Positions 49,294-63,726 of a stretch of DNA of 64,000 nt are shown here, in pieces. Made by a program: the position numbers and the translations under genes. The DNA is from Streptomyces sp. NBC_01454 (GTDB lineage: Bacteria > Actinomycetota > Actinomycetes > Streptomycetales > Streptomycetaceae), in the NCBI RefSeq assembly GCF_036227565.1, contig NZ_CP109460.1, positions 6,882,001 to 6,946,000 of the forward strand, read 5' to 3'. The number at the start of each line of letters is the position of its first letter. Within the stretch, counting starts at the first letter, position 1. Under the pieces are notes generated by a model. That model worked only from the letters and a program-made list of their open reading frames with translations. It searched no databases and was not told the origin of the DNA.

Positions 49294-50493
49294 TCACCAG
49301 CGCACCGGCAGACTGCGTACGCCCCGGACTCTGATGCCCGGCAGCCAGTCGAGACCGGCCGGATCGATGTCGAGCGCCAGGTCGGGACAGCGGCGCAGCA
49401 GGGTCAGGAGCGCGACCCGGCTCTCCATCCGCGCCAGCCCGGCACCCAGGCAGAAGTGGATGCCGTGGCCGAAGGCGACGTGGCCACTGCGGGTGCCGGT
49501 CGTGCCGCGGTGGATGTCGAACGTGTCGGGTCGCTCGAACTGCGCAGGGTCACGCCCCGCCGCCGCGATGCTGACCAGAACCGTCTCCCCGGGCGGGATC
49601 TTCGTGTCGCCGTAGCTGACGGTGTCGGTGGTGAACCGCTTGGTCGACGTCTCCACCGGGCCGTCGTAGCGCAGCATCTCCTCGACCGCCTGGTCGATCA
49701 GACCCTCCGGGTCGGTACGCAGCGCCGCCAGTTGTTCGGGGTTTGCCAGGAGCGTGCGTACCCCGTTGGTGATCAGGTTGGCCGTGGTCTCGTGACCCGC
49801 AACGATCAGGATGAACACCATCGAGTGCAGCTCGGCGGCCGACAGGCGGTCGTTGTCCTCCGCGGTTGTCCGCAACAGCGAGGAGATCAGGTCGCCGGTC
49901 GGCGTAGAGCGGCGCTTGTCCTCGATCAGGTTCTTCAGGTAGTCCGTCAGGGCCATCCCGGCCTGCGCGAAACCCCGGCTCTTCCACCAGGCTATGGTGC
50001 CTGGTTCGGCCGGCACCAGAACCCGCTCCGTCCAGCCGCGGAAGTCCTCCCGGTCGGCGAACGGGACCCCGAGCAGTTCGCAGAGCACGGTTATCGGCAG
50101 CGGGGACGCCAGCGCCGAGACCAGGTCGGCTCGCCGCCGCCCGGCCACCATCTCATCGAGGAGACCGTCGGTGATCTCCTGGACGCGCGGGCGCATCGCC
50201 TCCACCCGGCGTGCGGTGAACTCCCGCGAGACGAGCCGCCTCAGCCGCGTGTGGTCCGGCGGATCGGTGATCAGGACGTGCCGCTCGTCCTCGCTCGGCG
50301 GTTCGAGGGACTTGGCCAGACGTGGATCGGCCAGGGCCGCCCGGGCCTCGTCGTAGCCGACGATCAGCCAGAACCGGTCCCCGTCGGCCAGGACAATCTC
50401 GTGCACCGGCCCGGCCTCGCGCAGCCGGGCGTAGTAGGGGTACGGGTCGGTGAAGAAACCGGGGCCGTATGCGCTCAGGTCGACGGTCACCAT
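49294..50493 (-). CDS. Cytochrome P450 (CYP107-like)
   Basis: A 399-residue soluble bacterial P450 monooxygenase. The I-helix oxygen-binding motif AGHETT is at 232-237, the K-helix ExxR is in AVEEMLRYD, and the haem ligand is Cys348 in FGHGIHFCLGAG. The style resembles CYP107-type macrolide or small-molecule hydroxylases, but the substrate is unknown. The ATG at 50493 overlaps the stop of the alpha/beta hydrolase gene by 7 bases, so the two are co-translated. No ferredoxin or reductase gene is nearby. Confidence 0.93.
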   Translation of the reverse strand: MVTVDLSAYGPGFFTDPYPYYARLREAGPVHEIVLADGDRFWLIVGYDEARAALADPRLAKSLEPPSEDERHVLITDPPDHTRLRRLVSREFTARRVEAMRPRVQEITDGLLDEMVAGRRRADLVSALASPLPITVLCELLGVPFADREDFRGWTERVLVPAEPGTIAWWKSRGFAQAGMALTDYLKNLIEDKRRSTPTGDLISSLLRTTAEDNDRLSAAELHSMVFILIVAGHETTANLITNGVRTLLANPEQLAALRTDPEGLIDQAVEEMLRYDGPVETSTKRFTTDTVSYGDTKIPPGETVLVSIAAAGRDPAQFERPDTFDIHRGTTGTRSGHVAFGHGIHFCLGAGLARMESRVALLTLLRRCPDLALDIDPAGLDWLPGIRVRGVRSLPVRW

Positions 50494-56268: not shown

Positions 56269-58359
<2,091 letters not shown>

Positions 58360-58497: not shown

Positions 58498-58558
58498 CGC
58501 AACGATCCATCGTCCACCGCGCCGGTGCGCAATGATCATCCGTGGTTACGCAAGGAAC
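58498..58558 (+). promoter_or_regulatory. Three-copy CGCAA direct repeat upstream of the permease gene
   Basis: CGCAACGATC (58498), CGCAATGATC (58528) and CGCAAGGAAC (58549) start 30 and 21 bp apart. The same arrangement occurs upstream of davA. Candidate operator of the Lrp/AsnC regulator encoded just downstream. The rest of the 58427-58733 gap shows no gene. Confidence 0.7.
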
Positions 58559-58733
58559 CTGCATTACGGCAGGTCAGCGGCGGCCCGTAAGGTCAAGCGC
58601 TGTACGTGGAGTGGCGGGGACCGCCTGCTCGGCGGTCTCCTGCTGCGGCGTGTTTCGGCATGCCCTTGTACCGACCGCTGCCGGTCGTCGCCATCCGTAC
58701 GTCATTGATCGGCAGCGAAAAGGAGCCACCCCA

Positions 58734-60206
58734 GTGTTGGAGCACGGCGCAGCCCCGCCCGCAGGGGCCAGCGACCCCCGACCGCCCTCCTCCCCAGGAC
58801 TCGGCACCCGGCTGATGCGGCGCAAGCCCGTCGAGCGCCTGGTCTCCGAGGGCGGCAAGGGGCAGGGGGGAGAGCTCCGCCGCTCCATGGGCATGTGGCA
58901 GCTGACCATGATCAGCATCGGTGCCACGCTCGGCACCGGCATCTTCGTCGTCCTCGGCGAGGCCGTGCCGGACGCCGGGCCCGCGGTCATCCTCTCCTTC
59001 GTCATCGCCGGGATCACCGCGCTGTTCTCCGCGCTGTCCTACGCGGAGCTGGCCGGCTCCATCCCGGTCTCCGGGTCCTCCTACTCCTACGCGTACGCCA
59101 CCCTCGGTGAGCTGATCGCCTGGGTGTGCGGCTGGTGCCTGATCCTGGAGTACGGCGTCTCGGTCGCGGCCGTCGCCGTGGGCTGGGGCCAGTATCTGAA
59201 CGAGCTGCTCAACGGCGTCTTCGGCGTCACCATCCCGGCCGCGCTGTCCCAGCCGCCCGGCGACGGCGGGATCTTCAACCTGCCGGCGCTGGTGGTCGTG
59301 CTGCTGGCGATGGTGTTCCTGCTGGGCGGGGCCAAGGAGAGCGCCCGGGCCAACACGATCATGGTCGCCGTCAAGATCGTCGCGCTGCTGCTGTTCTGCG
59401 GCGTCGCCCTGCAGGGCGTGCGCTCCGGCAACTACGCGAACTTCATGCCGATGGGCATGGCGGGCGTCAGCGCCGCCGGCGCCACCCTGTTCTTCTCGTA
59501 CATCGGCTTCGACGCCGCCTCCACCGCCGGCGAGGAGGCCAAGAACCCGCAGCGCGACCTGCCGCGCGCGATCATGCTCTCGCTGGTGATCGTCACCGCG
59601 CTGTACTGCCTGGTCGCGGCCATCGCCGTGGGCGCCATGCCCTGGCAGAAGTTCAAGGGCTCGGAGGCCGCGCTGGCCGGGATCATGAAGTCGGTCACCG
59701 GGCAGAGCTTCTGGGCGGTGCTGCTCGCGTTCGGTGCGGTGGTCGCCATCGCCAGCGTCGTGCTGACCGTGCTCTACGGCCAGACCCGCATCCTCTTCGC
59801 GATGTCCCGGGACGGGCTGGTGCCCAAGGTGTTCTCCAAGGTGCACCCCAAGAGCGGTGCCCCGCGCGTGAACACCGTGATCGTGTCGCTGTTCTGCGGA
59901 GTGCTCGCCGCGGCGGTGCCGCTGGGCCAGCTGGCCGACGCCACCAGCATCGGCACCCTGTTCGCCTTCGCGCTGGTCAATATCGCGGTGATCGTGCTGC
60001 GCCGCACCCGGCCCGATATGCCGCGCAGCTTCCGTACGCCGCTCTCGCCGCTCTTCCCCGCGATCGGCTTTGTGCTGTGCCTTTACATGATGGGCAGCCT
60101 CGACGTCGTGACCTGGGTGGTCTTCGGTGCCTGGATGGCCGTCGGCCTTGTGGTCTACTTCGGATACGGCTTGCGCCGCTCCCGATTGGCCACCGCAGAG
60201 AAGTGA
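58734..60206 (+). CDS. APC superfamily amino-acid permease (probably lysine or related cationic amino acid)
   Basis: A 490-residue protein with about 12 membrane segments and the APC signature IGATLGTGIFVVLGEA in segment 1 and FFSYIGFDAASTAGEEAKNPQRDLPRAI in the middle, as in CAT-type cationic amino-acid transporters. A cytoplasmic N-terminus of about 55 residues precedes. The GTG at 58734 has AAGGAG 9 nt upstream; the frame is open to 58542 but without support. It ends 10 bp before the Lrp gene. Lysine as substrate is inferred from the neighbouring catabolic genes. Confidence 0.88.
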   Translation: MLEHGAAPPAGASDPRPPSSPGLGTRLMRRKPVERLVSEGGKGQGGELRRSMGMWQLTMISIGATLGTGIFVVLGEAVPDAGPAVILSFVIAGITALFSALSYAELAGSIPVSGSSYSYAYATLGELIAWVCGWCLILEYGVSVAAVAVGWGQYLNELLNGVFGVTIPAALSQPPGDGGIFNLPALVVVLLAMVFLLGGAKESARANTIMVAVKIVALLLFCGVALQGVRSGNYANFMPMGMAGVSAAGATLFFSYIGFDAASTAGEEAKNPQRDLPRAIMLSLVIVTALYCLVAAIAVGAMPWQKFKGSEAALAGIMKSVTGQSFWAVLLAFGAVVAIASVVLTVLYGQTRILFAMSRDGLVPKVFSKVHPKSGAPRVNTVIVSLFCGVLAAAVPLGQLADATSIGTLFAFALVNIAVIVLRRTRPDMPRSFRTPLSPLFPAIGFVLCLYMMGSLDVVTWVVFGAWMAVGLVVYFGYGLRRSRLATAEK

Positions 60207-60216
60207 TCCACCCGCA

Positions 60217-60672
60217 GTGCGACTGAACGATCTCGACGAACGCATCGTCCACGCCCTCGCCGAGGACGCCCGCCGCAGCTACGCCGACATCGGCCAGGAG
60301 GTCGGGCTGTCCGCGCCGGCCGTCAAGCGCCGGGTGGACCGGCTGCGGGCGGACGGCGCGATCACCGGCTTCACCGTACGGGTCGACCCGGCCGCGCTCG
60401 GCTGGGAGACCGAAGGGGTCATCGAGCTCTACTGCCGCCGCAACACCTCGCCCGAGGCGATCCACCGCGGCCTGTCGCGCTACCCGGAAGTGGCGTCCGC
60501 CTCCACCGTCACCGGTGAGGCGGACGCCATCGTCCAGGTCTTCGCCGCCGACATGCGGCACTTCGAGCGGGTGCTGGAGCGGATCGCCGGCGAACCGTTC
60601 GTGGAGCGGACCAAGTCCGTGCTGGTGCTCTCGCCGCTGCTGCGCCGGTACGGCTCGGGGGCGCCGGGCTGA
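60217..60672 (+). CDS. Lrp/AsnC family transcriptional regulator
   Basis: A 151-residue regulator: winged HTH (about 2-50, LNDLDERIVHALAEDARRSYADIGQEVG then LSAPAVKRRVDRL) and a C-terminal RAM ligand-binding domain (ASASTVTGEADAIVQVFAAD) that usually binds an amino acid. The GTG start lies 10 bp after the permease stop, so both share a transcript. Located between permease and davAB genes, it probably senses lysine. Matching repeat arrays upstream of both units are candidate binding sites. Confidence 0.92.
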   Translation: MRLNDLDERIVHALAEDARRSYADIGQEVGLSAPAVKRRVDRLRADGAITGFTVRVDPAALGWETEGVIELYCRRNTSPEAIHRGLSRYPEVASASTVTGEADAIVQVFAADMRHFERVLERIAGEPFVERTKSVLVLSPLLRRYGSGAPG

Positions 60673-60724
60673 CCCGGCCCGGCCCCGCCCGGCGGGTGCC
60701 GCCCCCAGGCCCCCGCCCTCATAG

Positions 60725-60763
60725 AACCCCGCCGTGCGGACCTCCGGTCCCTGCGGCGGGGTT
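60725..60763 (+). terminator. Terminator after the Lrp gene
   Basis: A perfect 10-bp outer stem (AACCCCGCCG at 60725-60734 with 60754-60763) topped by a GGACC/GGTCC stem (60738-60742 with 60746-60750). Confidence 0.85.
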
Positions 60764-60921
60764 TCCCGCGTCCGGGCCAGGCGCGGCGTCCAGGCCCTGA
60801 GCCGCCGGCCTGCCGCGGCCTTGACCAGCTCGTTGTCGGCGTGGCCGGCGGAGCGGAGGACCTCCCCGGAGCCGTCCGCCGGACCGTCGGTGTGGCGACC
60901 GGCCGCCACGGGCCCGGCAGA

Positions 60922-60985
60922 CGCAACGAATCACCGCATATTCCCTTGAACGCGCAATGAATCGGTCGGCGGCACGCAACGGTGG
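60922..60985 (+). promoter_or_regulatory. Three-copy CGCAA direct repeat upstream of davA
   Basis: CGCAACGAATC (60922), CGCAATGAATC (60953) and CGCAACGGTGG (60975) start 31 and 22 bp apart, one base more than each interval in the permease promoter. The rest of the 60764-61056 gap has no gene that I can support. Confidence 0.7.
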
Positions 60986-61056
60986 CGCCTTGTCCCGGAT
61001 CACCGGCGGACCGTACCGTCAATGCGTCCACCCGCACCGCCTCGCCGAGGGATCCC

Positions 61057-61872
61057 ATGACGTCGCTGCACACCGCCCTGCTCCAGAGTTCGGGACGGCC
61101 CGGCGATGTCGCGCACAACCTGCGGATCCTCGATGACGCGGCCCGCGCGGCGGCCGCGACCGGCGCCGGACTGCTGGCCTGCCCGGAACTCTTCCTGACC
61201 GGCTACGCCATCGGCGCCGATGTCCACCGCCTCGCCGAGCCCGCCGACGGCGACAGTGCCGGGGCCGTCGCGAAGATCGCCGCCGCACACGGCATCGCGG
61301 TGCTCTACGGCTACCCCGAGCGCGCCGCGCGCGACGAGCGCGACAGCGCCGCGGTGTACAACTCGGCGCAGCTCATCGGCCCGGAGGGCGAGCGCCTCGC
61401 GAACTACCGCAAGACCCATCTCTTCGGCTGCTTCGAGCGCGAGTGGTTCACGCCGGGCGAGCGGGCCGTCGTCCAGGCCGATCTGGCCGGCCTCCGTATC
61501 GGCGTCATGATCTGCTACGACGTGGAGTTCCCGGAGAACGTCCGGGCCCATGCGCTGGCCGGCACCGATCTGCTGCTGGTGCCCACCGCGCAGATGCACC
61601 CCTTCCAGTTCGTCGCCGAGTCCGTCATCCCGGTGCGCGCCTTCGAGAACCAGATGTATGTGGCGTACGTCAACCGGGTCGGCGCGGAGGGCGAGTTCGA
61701 GTTCGTCGGGCTCAGCTGCCTGGCCGGCCCCGACGGTGTCGTACGCACCCGCGCCGGCCGCACCGAACAGCTGGTGTACGCCGAGGCGGACCCCGCCTTC
61801 CTGAAGGAATCCCGGGCGGACAACCCCTATCTGCACGACCGGCGGCCGGAGTTGTACGGCCCGCTGACCTGA
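61057..61872 (+). CDS. davA: Nitrilase-superfamily amidase, probable 5-aminovaleramidase (DavA)
   Basis: A 271-residue carbon-nitrogen hydrolase with the Glu-Lys-Cys triad: E44 (CPELFLTGY), K119 (NYRKTHLFG) and C153 (MICYDVEFPE). The whole pattern, including GYPER, and the adjacent DavB-like gene fit 5-aminovaleramidase, which hydrolyses 5-aminovaleramide to 5-aminovalerate and ammonia. ATG 61057 has CGAGGGA 6 nt upstream. davB follows 153 bp later, probably on the same mRNA. Related enzymes act on other amides, so the substrate remains an inference. Confidence 0.85.
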   Translation: MTSLHTALLQSSGRPGDVAHNLRILDDAARAAAATGAGLLACPELFLTGYAIGADVHRLAEPADGDSAGAVAKIAAAHGIAVLYGYPERAARDERDSAAVYNSAQLIGPEGERLANYRKTHLFGCFEREWFTPGERAVVQADLAGLRIGVMICYDVEFPENVRAHALAGTDLLLVPTAQMHPFQFVAESVIPVRAFENQMYVAYVNRVGAEGEFEFVGLSCLAGPDGVVRTRAGRTEQLVYAEADPAFLKESRADNPYLHDRRPELYGPLT

Positions 61873-62025: not shown

Positions 62026-63726
62026 ATGACGTCCACGGTGCCCACCGCCGCCCACCACGCGGATGCCCAGCCCCCGATCACCATGTTCGGCCCGGACTTC
62101 CCGTACGCCTATGACGACTTCCTCGCCCACCCGGCGGGTCTCGGCCAGGTCCCCGCGACCGAGCTGGGGAAGGAAGTCGCGGTCATCGGCGGCGGCCTCT
62201 CGGGGATCATCACCGCCTACGAGCTGATGAAGATGGGGCTGCGGCCCGTCGTCTACGAGGCCGACCGAATAGGCGGCCGGCTGCGCACCGTCGGCTTCGA
62301 GGGCACCCCGTCCGAGGCGGCGGGCCTGACCGCCGAGATGGGCGCGATGCGCTTCCCGCCGTCCTCGACGGCGCTCCAGCACTACATCGACCTGGTGGGC
62401 CTCACGACCAAGCCGTTCCCCAACCCGCTGGCACCGGAGACCCCCTCGACCGTCGTCGACCTCAAGGGCGAGTCCCACTACGCGCGCACGGTCGACGATC
62501 TCCCCGAGGTCTACCACCAGGTCATGGACGCCTGGAACGCCTGCCTGGAAGAGGGCGCGGACTTCGCCGACATGAACCAGGCGATCCGCGAGCGCGACGT
62601 CCCGCGCATCCGCGAGATCTGGTCCCGCCTCGTCGAGAAGCTCGACAACCAGACCTTCTACGGCTACCTCTGCGACTCGACGGCCTTCAAGTCCTTCCGC
62701 CACCGGGAGATCTTCGGTCAGGTCGGCTTCGGCACCGGCGGCTGGGACACCGACTTCCCCAACTCCATCCTGGAGATCCTGCGGGTCGTCTACACCGAGG
62801 CCGATGACCACCACCGCGGCATCGTCGGCGGCAGCCAGCAGCTGCCGGTGCGGCTGTGGGAGCGGGAGCCGGCGAAGATCGTGCACTGGGCGCCGGGCAC
62901 CTCGCTGTCGTCGCTGCACGAGGGCGCCCCGCGGCCCGCGGTGACCCGCCTGAACCGCACCGCCGGCAACCGCATCACGGTCACCGACGCCGACGGCGAC
63001 ATCCGCACCTACGAGGCGGCCGTCTTCACCGCGCAGTCCTGGATGCTGCTGAGCAAGATCGCCTGCGACGACTCGCTGTTCCCCATCGACCACTGGACGG
63101 CGATGGAGCGCACCCACTACATGGAGTCCAGCAAGCTCTTCGTGCCCGTCGACCGGCCGTTCTGGCTCGACAAGGACGAGCACACGGGCCGGGACACCAT
63201 GTCGATGACGCTGACCGACCGGATGACCCGGGGAACGTATCTGCTCGACAACGGCCCGGACGAGCCCGCCGTCATCTGCCTCTCCTACACCTGGTGCGAC
63301 GACAGCCTCAAGTGGCTGCCGCTGGGGGCGAACGAGCGGATGGAGGTCATGCTGAAGTCGCTGTCGGAGATCTATCCGAAGGTCGACATCCGCAAGCACA
63401 TCATCGGCAACCCGGTCACCGTCTCCTGGGAGAACGAGCCCTACTTCATGGGCGCCTTCAAGGCGAACCTGCCCGGCCACTACCGCTACCAGCGGCGCCT
63501 GTTCACGCACTTCATGCAGGACCGGCTCCCCGAGGACAAGCGCGGCCTGTTCCTCGCGGGCGACGACATCTCCTGGACGGCGGGCTGGGCCGAGGGCGCG
63601 GTACAGACCGCACTCAACGCGGTGTGGGGCGTGATGCACCACTTCGGCGGCGCGACGGATGCGGCGAACCCGGGTCCGGGCGATGTCTACGACGAGATCG
63701 CGCCGGTCGAACTGCCCGAGGACTAG
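62026..63726 (+). CDS. davB: FAD-dependent L-amino-acid 2-monooxygenase, probable L-lysine 2-monooxygenase (DavB)
   Basis: A 566-residue flavin amine oxidase-fold enzyme. The FAD-binding VIGGGLSGIITAYEL is at about 53-67, GRLRTV and the substrate-side AEMGAMRFPPSSTA follow, and the C-terminal FAD motif is LAGDDISWTAGWAEGAVQT. It resembles tryptophan 2-monooxygenase, but the segments TMFGPDFPYAYDDFL, FGQVGFGTGGWDTDFPNS and DNPGPGDV-like ending (NPGPGDVYDEI) correspond to Pseudomonas DavB as I remember it. It should oxidatively decarboxylate lysine to 5-aminovaleramide. ATG 62026 has AAGGAG 10 nt upstream. A terminator follows. Confidence 0.87.
   Translation: MTSTVPTAAHHADAQPPITMFGPDFPYAYDDFLAHPAGLGQVPATELGKEVAVIGGGLSGIITAYELMKMGLRPVVYEADRIGGRLRTVGFEGTPSEAAGLTAEMGAMRFPPSSTALQHYIDLVGLTTKPFPNPLAPETPSTVVDLKGESHYARTVDDLPEVYHQVMDAWNACLEEGADFADMNQAIRERDVPRIREIWSRLVEKLDNQTFYGYLCDSTAFKSFRHREIFGQVGFGTGGWDTDFPNSILEILRVVYTEADDHHRGIVGGSQQLPVRLWEREPAKIVHWAPGTSLSSLHEGAPRPAVTRLNRTAGNRITVTDADGDIRTYEAAVFTAQSWMLLSKIACDDSLFPIDHWTAMERTHYMESSKLFVPVDRPFWLDKDEHTGRDTMSMTLTDRMTRGTYLLDNGPDEPAVICLSYTWCDDSLKWLPLGANERMEVMLKSLSEIYPKVDIRKHIIGNPVTVSWENEPYFMGAFKANLPGHYRYQRRLFTHFMQDRLPEDKRGLFLAGDDISWTAGWAEGAVQTALNAVWGVMHHFGGATDAANPGPGDVYDEIAPVELPED

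Follow-up and report, generated by a model that had tools for sequence, protein, structure and literature searches.

Rigidly spaced three-site arrays as candidate Lrp operators of permease-lrp and davA-davB in Streptomyces

Two arrays of three short repeats precede the permease-lrp and davA-davB genes of a putative lysine catabolic locus in Streptomyces, and the spacing is rigid, both among the repeats and with respect to promoter-like hexamers, within the genus as well as in other genera of its family. Similar arrays are located beside homologous Lrp genes. Judged by sequence comparison, the arrays are most likely the landing sites of the neighboring Lrp-type regulator. The best explanation, which we hold to be probable, is that each promoter is occupied by three Lrp dimers, aligned along one DNA face, which activate permease-lrp and davA-davB in response to lysine or a related amino acid.

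The two arrays and their promoter-like elements

At the end of the window, i.e., of the whole 64-kb stretch of DNA that was analyzed, guaB1 (positions 56896-58359) lies ahead of an APC-family amino acid permease gene (58734-60206, + strand, GTG start), whose product scores above the cut-off of TIGR00909 and has a further match, with a score below the cut-off, to the model for cationic amino acid permeases. Just past the permease stop codon, a 151-aa Lrp/AsnC-family regulator is encoded (60217-60672, + strand, GTG start), followed by genes for a davA-like carbon-nitrogen hydrolase (61057-61872, + strand; PF00795) and a davB-like flavin amine oxidase (62026-63726, + strand; PF01593). The best solved match of DavB is the L-amino acid oxidase/monooxygenase 3we0 (796 bits; E value of 2e-238), an enzyme that presumably acts on lysine, and the second best is tryptophan 2-monooxygenase with 203 bits. 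The DavA-like protein resembles amidases in similarity searches and may function as a 5-aminovaleramidase. No NCBIfam family naming DavA or DavB scores above its curated cut-off with these proteins, and a role of the locus in lysine catabolism is proposed from the DavB similarity together with the adjacency of DavA and DavB.

The regulator contains both the AsnC-type helix-turn-helix domain (PF13404; 59.9 bits, cut-off of 27) and the Lrp/AsnC ligand-binding domain (PF01037; 54.4 bits, cut-off of 25) and therefore belongs to the Lrp/AsnC family. Its best NCBIfam match is LysM (NF040947), but its score of 67.6 bits falls short of the cut-off (180 bits), so that it is not a LysM equivalog, and neither is it an equivalog of AsnC (NF008384; 59.3 bits, cut-off of 227) or Lrp (NF008370; 43.4 bits, cut-off of 233). 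The ligand would be a basic amino acid, probably lysine, a responsiveness that is deduced only from the neighboring enzymes.

The candidate operator sites upstream of permease-lrp, all on the + strand, are CGCAACGATCCATCG (58498-58512), CGCAATGATCATCCG (58528-58542; 30 bp past site 1), and CGCAAGGAACCTGCA (58549-58563; 21 bp past site 2). Those of the davA promoter, on the same strand, are CGCAACGAATCACCG (60922-60936), CGCAATGAATCGGTC (60953-60967; 31 bp past site 1), and CGCAACGGTGGCGCC (60975-60989; 22 bp past site 2). All six strings and both pairs of steps, which had been described in the initial annotation, were confirmed, and a single extra CGCAACGATC is present outside both arrays at position 49798 of the window. 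In total, the window contains 66 copies of the pentamer CGCAA on its + strand and 28 on its - strand. A chance origin of the arrays is ruled out, because about 0.0003 CGCAA triples at step pairs of 30-31/21-22 are expected on the + strand per 64 kb, whereas two were observed, and 300 first-order Markov simulations of the forward strand yielded none at those four step pairs. Even the looser pattern CGCAA-N22-29-CGCAA-N14-20-CGCAA was found only three times in the 9.46-Mb genome, two of the matches being these arrays (backwards control, one match). The core GCAAYGAWYC alone is unspecific (42 matches in the same genome, 3 control matches), and plasmid records searched with the permease promoter gave no match. 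The sites show weak dyad symmetry, a point against their occupation by Lrp dimers, which usually bind inverted repeats.

A feature absent from the initial annotation is the equal distance of 15 bp between the start of the third copy and a -35-like hexamer in both promoters. Upstream of permease-lrp, the putative promoter elements are TTACGG (58564-58569, + strand) and, after an 18-bp spacer, the -10-like hexamer TAAGGT (58588-58593, + strand); the davA counterparts are TTGTCC (60990-60995, + strand) and TACCGT (61014-61019, + strand), likewise with an 18-bp spacer. If the hexamers are taken as the promoter, the sites would be centered near -44, -65, and -96 in standard promoter numbering, which is an activator-type layout. 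Each promoter would offer the local Lrp/AsnC protein three sites of about 15 bp that lie approximately three and two helical turns apart on one DNA face, with the third abutting the -35 element. In the mechanism that we infer, three Lrp dimers would bind side by side at these positions, and the promoter-proximal dimer would aid RNA polymerase at weak promoters, so that an ample supply of lysine or a related basic amino acid would switch on davA-davB and permease-lrp, the latter with autoregulation of the lrp gene.

The main rival to activation is repression via the same sites, whereby the same Lrp protein would silence both promoters, with site 3 hindering the polymerase, until it is released by lysine. 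Contact of site 3 with the -35 region is compatible with this scenario, as is the autorepression common among Lrp/AsnC proteins. However, all three sites are located upstream of the proposed -35 element and none overlaps the spacer, the -10 hexamer, or the start region; moreover, the -35-like hexamer keeps a constant distance of 15 bp from site 3, in agreement with a contact to the polymerase, and both TTACGG and TTGTCC bear little resemblance to TTGACA. We regard repression as unlikely, even though it is the strongest of the alternatives.

Conservation in Streptomyces and related genera

Conservation of the repeats in orthologous loci had been named beforehand as a point on which the operator proposal could fail. 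It was assessed in 80 Streptomyces loci, the best by DavB match of 574 confirmed stretches; the resulting counts are not independent, since these loci are closely related and were selected for their similarity in DavB. All 68 readable permease promoters (12 of the 80 lacked readable sequence) contain an NGCAA triple at steps of exactly 30/21, with CGCAA in all three copies in 57 of them. For davA, the triple is found at exactly 31/22 in 73 of 77 readable promoters (3 of 80 lacked readable sequence), and CGCAA is present in all three copies in 70 readable promoters; the four misses (L053, L055, L074, and L079) retain the positions and differ by one altered base in one copy. Arrays with the exact triple are free of indels, while the start codon is found at varying distances from the first copy (196-335 bp for the permease and 133-204 bp for davA). 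The initial annotation had additionally proposed a conserved order of variants (CGCAAC, CGCAAT, and then a weaker copy). The spacing and the CGCAA core stood up to the comparison, but the order did not: C and T swap among species, which rules it out as a conserved signal.

The promoter-like hexamers share this regularity. At a distance of 15 bp (+15) from the start of the third copy, TTACG- is present in 60/68 permease promoters (TTACGG in 33, TTACGA in 24, plus variants) and TTGTCC in 60/73 davA promoters. A -10-like hexamer follows at an 18-bp spacer in 58/68 permease promoters (other spacers in 10/68) and in 73/73 davA promoters (TACCGT in 70/73), counts that are flattered by picking the -10 hexamer as the best of spacings from 15 to 20 bp.

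A genus-wide scan of 81 Streptomyces genomes, including that of the window, was performed with loose-gap patterns and controls. The permease pattern matched 12 times in 12 genomes, always at 30/21, and the davA pattern 61 times in 61 genomes, of which 59 matches are spaced 31/22 (three of these can also be read in another way), the other two being spaced 31/21 and 30/22; neither pattern had a control match. A two-copy pattern matched in 50/81 genomes, with four control matches. For the 17 genomes with Lrp and DavB that lacked a strict davA match, the region before davB was read with the best placement over steps of 30-32/20-23: the exact 31/22 triple was present in nine, one mismatch was found in three and two mismatches in three (G008, G010, and G069), G055 offered nothing but a 31/20 triple that carries two mismatches, and no array was detected in this region of G058. 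DavB and the Lrp orthologue were each found in 77/81 genomes (both in 76, neither in 3). A second DavB-like protein with 63-64% identity is encoded elsewhere in five of the 81 genomes (G031, G035, G055, G058, and G064). In S. piniterrae (L005:2870-5400), extra genes, by eye those of an MFS-type transporter and a LysR-type regulator, are located between lrp and davA, and the davA array is still present. A Streptomyces-like locus was also observed in L052, whose label Microtetraspora glauca may be wrong.

Beyond the genus, an Lrp homologue with an E value of 1e-50 or better was detected in 68 of 121 genomes of the Streptomyces family (27 of them Streptomyces), and 16 of the 41 non-Streptomyces loci were fetched, i.e., 10 of 35 with 81-91% and all six with 61-65% Lrp identity. 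All ten loci of the former set contain davBA, preceded by the exact 31/22 CGCAA triple and a TT at +15, and TAnnnT is located 17-18 bp farther on in 9/10. Upstream of the permease or lrp gene, arrays were found in only two of them (L222, with one mismatch, and L226), at steps of 31/21 rather than 30/21; a permease gene was detected in four loci and none in six. Scanning both strands of the 16 loci with one mismatch in all allowed revealed 17 arrays, each located before davA, permease, or lrp or at or just past the lrp end.

Homologous Lrp genes beside other enzymes

In the set with 61-65% identity, a 31/21 triple is present in 5/6 loci (two exact, three with one mismatch) at or just past the lrp end, and all five arrays are followed by TT at +15 and TAnnnT at 17-18 bp. 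The sixth locus (L232) revealed no array on either strand with one mismatch allowed. The gene past the array encodes a PLP-dependent decarboxylase in all three loci tested (L231, L233, and L234), and the corresponding gene of L229 and L230 shares the N-terminal sequence of such a decarboxylase.

Class-wide, an Lrp homologue with an E value of 1e-55 or better was found in 38 of 296 genomes, 27 of them Streptomyces. The loci of all 11 others (62-67% Lrp identity) were fetched, and without exception the Lrp gene adjoins ddaH-rocD, not dav genes. Four of these loci (L184-L187) have triples at 31/21-22; in L184 and L185, one of the three copies deviates from the consensus. The remaining seven (L183 and L188-L193) show just two copies at a step of 21-22 bp. 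TT at +15 is present in five (L186 and L190-L193; L184 and L185 were read by eye), and none of the 11 combines the triple, TT, and TAnnnT at 17-18 bp. Hence, the motif and the steps recur in the distant ddaH loci but the promoter distance does not hold: the 15 bp are kept within the Streptomyces family but mostly not in more distant families. In L188 and L189, an inverted copy, CGATTCGTTGCG, is located just upstream of the direct copies before ddaH and perhaps replaces site 1. Counting both ddaH-rocD and the PLP decarboxylase as other targets, 12/21 loci with homologous Lrp genes contain the triple at 31/21-22, among them a paralogue locus of the same genome (see below), and the array layout is not special to lysine genes.

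These comparisons bear on two further alternatives. Functional sites might be limited to one or two copies per array, with the conservation partly reflecting the promoter or shared ancestry; copy 3 is indeed the weakest outside CGCAA and merges into the conservation of the promoter, and seven distant ddaH loci show just two copies. Against this stand the retention of CGCAA and the steps within poorly conserved inter-site DNA of the Streptomyces loci and the recurrence of exact triples before davA in other genera and before other genes, which makes a smaller number of sites somewhat less credible still than repression. It is very improbable that a regulator other than the neighboring Lrp protein binds the arrays, as might be suspected from five loci (L014, L032, L059, L075, and L078) that kept the davA array without lrp in the fetched upstream DNA, since nine of the ten genomes without lrp at the fetched locus encode an orthologue with 86-98% identity elsewhere (the best Lrp match of the tenth, L008, which is a 4.9-kb contig, has 54%) and since similar arrays adjoin homologous Lrp genes beside other enzymes. 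The view of the arrays as putative operators of the local Lrp/AsnC protein, which the initial annotation had put forward, is thus well supported by the kept spacing, the davA array in all ten davBA loci of other genera, and the arrays beside homologous Lrp genes.

The search for the array elsewhere in the same genome, which had also been suggested, revealed a variant-core (CGCAG) triple beside an Lrp paralogue. This paralogue at L195 (C1:3815530-3818586; 52% identity) is followed by the CGCAG array and then by ddaH-rocD, and with steps of 31/21, 15 bp to TTGTTG, and 18 bp to TACCGT, it represents a second instance of the layout seen at the dav genes. There was no sign of an extensive regulon: scanning the genome for CGCAR triples gave five matches (control, one), three of which fit the scheme, the others being L194 and L196. 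In three other Streptomyces genomes, the Lrp paralogue at ddaH is likewise accompanied by a hexamer at +15, here TTGTCG, and by TACCGT at 17-18 bp. Two of these loci retain the first copy at 31 bp, whereas L152 does not, and the copies are mostly CGCAG and sometimes CGCAA. The dyad CGCA-N7-TGCG is visible in some variant sites of the paralogues (L151 and L152). In the alignment, the recognition-helix region reads SAPAVKRR in dav-type and distant ddaH-type Lrp proteins and SATAVKRR in the four Streptomyces ddaH paralogues. The change of the core goes broadly with the P-to-T change, a correlation seen in few lineages.

Taken together, these observations allow a tentative reading, for which the case is nearly balanced: in the Streptomyces family, one Lrp subfamily may use a rigid promoter ruler (three sites, steps of 30-31 and 21-22 bp, 15 bp to -35, and 17-18 bp to -10) as a portable module that activates the catabolism of basic amino acids (davBA, ddaH-rocD, and PLP decarboxylase) and that would be looser in more distant actinobacteria. 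The cores differ (CGCAAYGA versus mostly CGCAGCA) alongside the exchange of SAPAVKRR for SATAVKRR, so that paralogues in one cell would share the geometry but not the sequence.

Significance and comparison with known systems

To our knowledge, the target and the operator have been established for few Lrp/AsnC genes of actinobacteria. For one Lrp subfamily, sequence comparison proposes a regulator, its sites, the promoter geometry, and a possible specificity switch. Lysine breakdown in Streptomyces is usually described as proceeding via cadaverine; the present results suggest that davBA-type degradation is common in this genus, with DavB in 77/81 genomes, and under dedicated control.

The lysine monooxygenase pathway encoded by davBA is present in Pseudomonas, with which the Streptomyces locus shares a DavB-like enzyme, judged by its similarity to 3we0, and the adjacent DavA-like carbon-nitrogen hydrolase; it differs in that an APC permease gene and a local Lrp gene with three-site arrays are coupled to the dav genes. 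LysM of Sulfolobus, a lysine-responsive Lrp-type activator, is the best NCBIfam match of the regulator and has the putative link to lysine in common, but it serves biosynthesis, whereas the protein described here would serve catabolism. Lrp/AsnC (feast/famine) regulators bind DNA as dimers or higher oligomers at imperfect palindromes of about 15 bp, often several and helically phased, and dimer sites are usually inverted repeats; such phased multi-site operators are known in general, e.g., for E. coli Lrp and the archaeal Ss-LrpB. The dav locus resembles these two systems in the family domains and in several sites of about 15 bp phased at approximately two and three helical turns, and it differs from them in the constant distance of 15 bp that connects the array to the -35-like hexamer in either promoter and, with respect to E. 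coli Lrp, in the core CGCAAYGAWTC, which deviates from the consensus of that protein. Another parallel is the actinobacterial Lrp gene beside ddaH-rocD, which we take to be the Rv2324-type locus of M. tuberculosis: it has in common a 62-67% identical Lrp protein and CGCAA copies 21-22 bp apart, with the further copy at 31 bp in 4/11 loci, but its target is arginine/ornithine instead of lysine catabolism, and the promoter distance is not kept in most of these loci.
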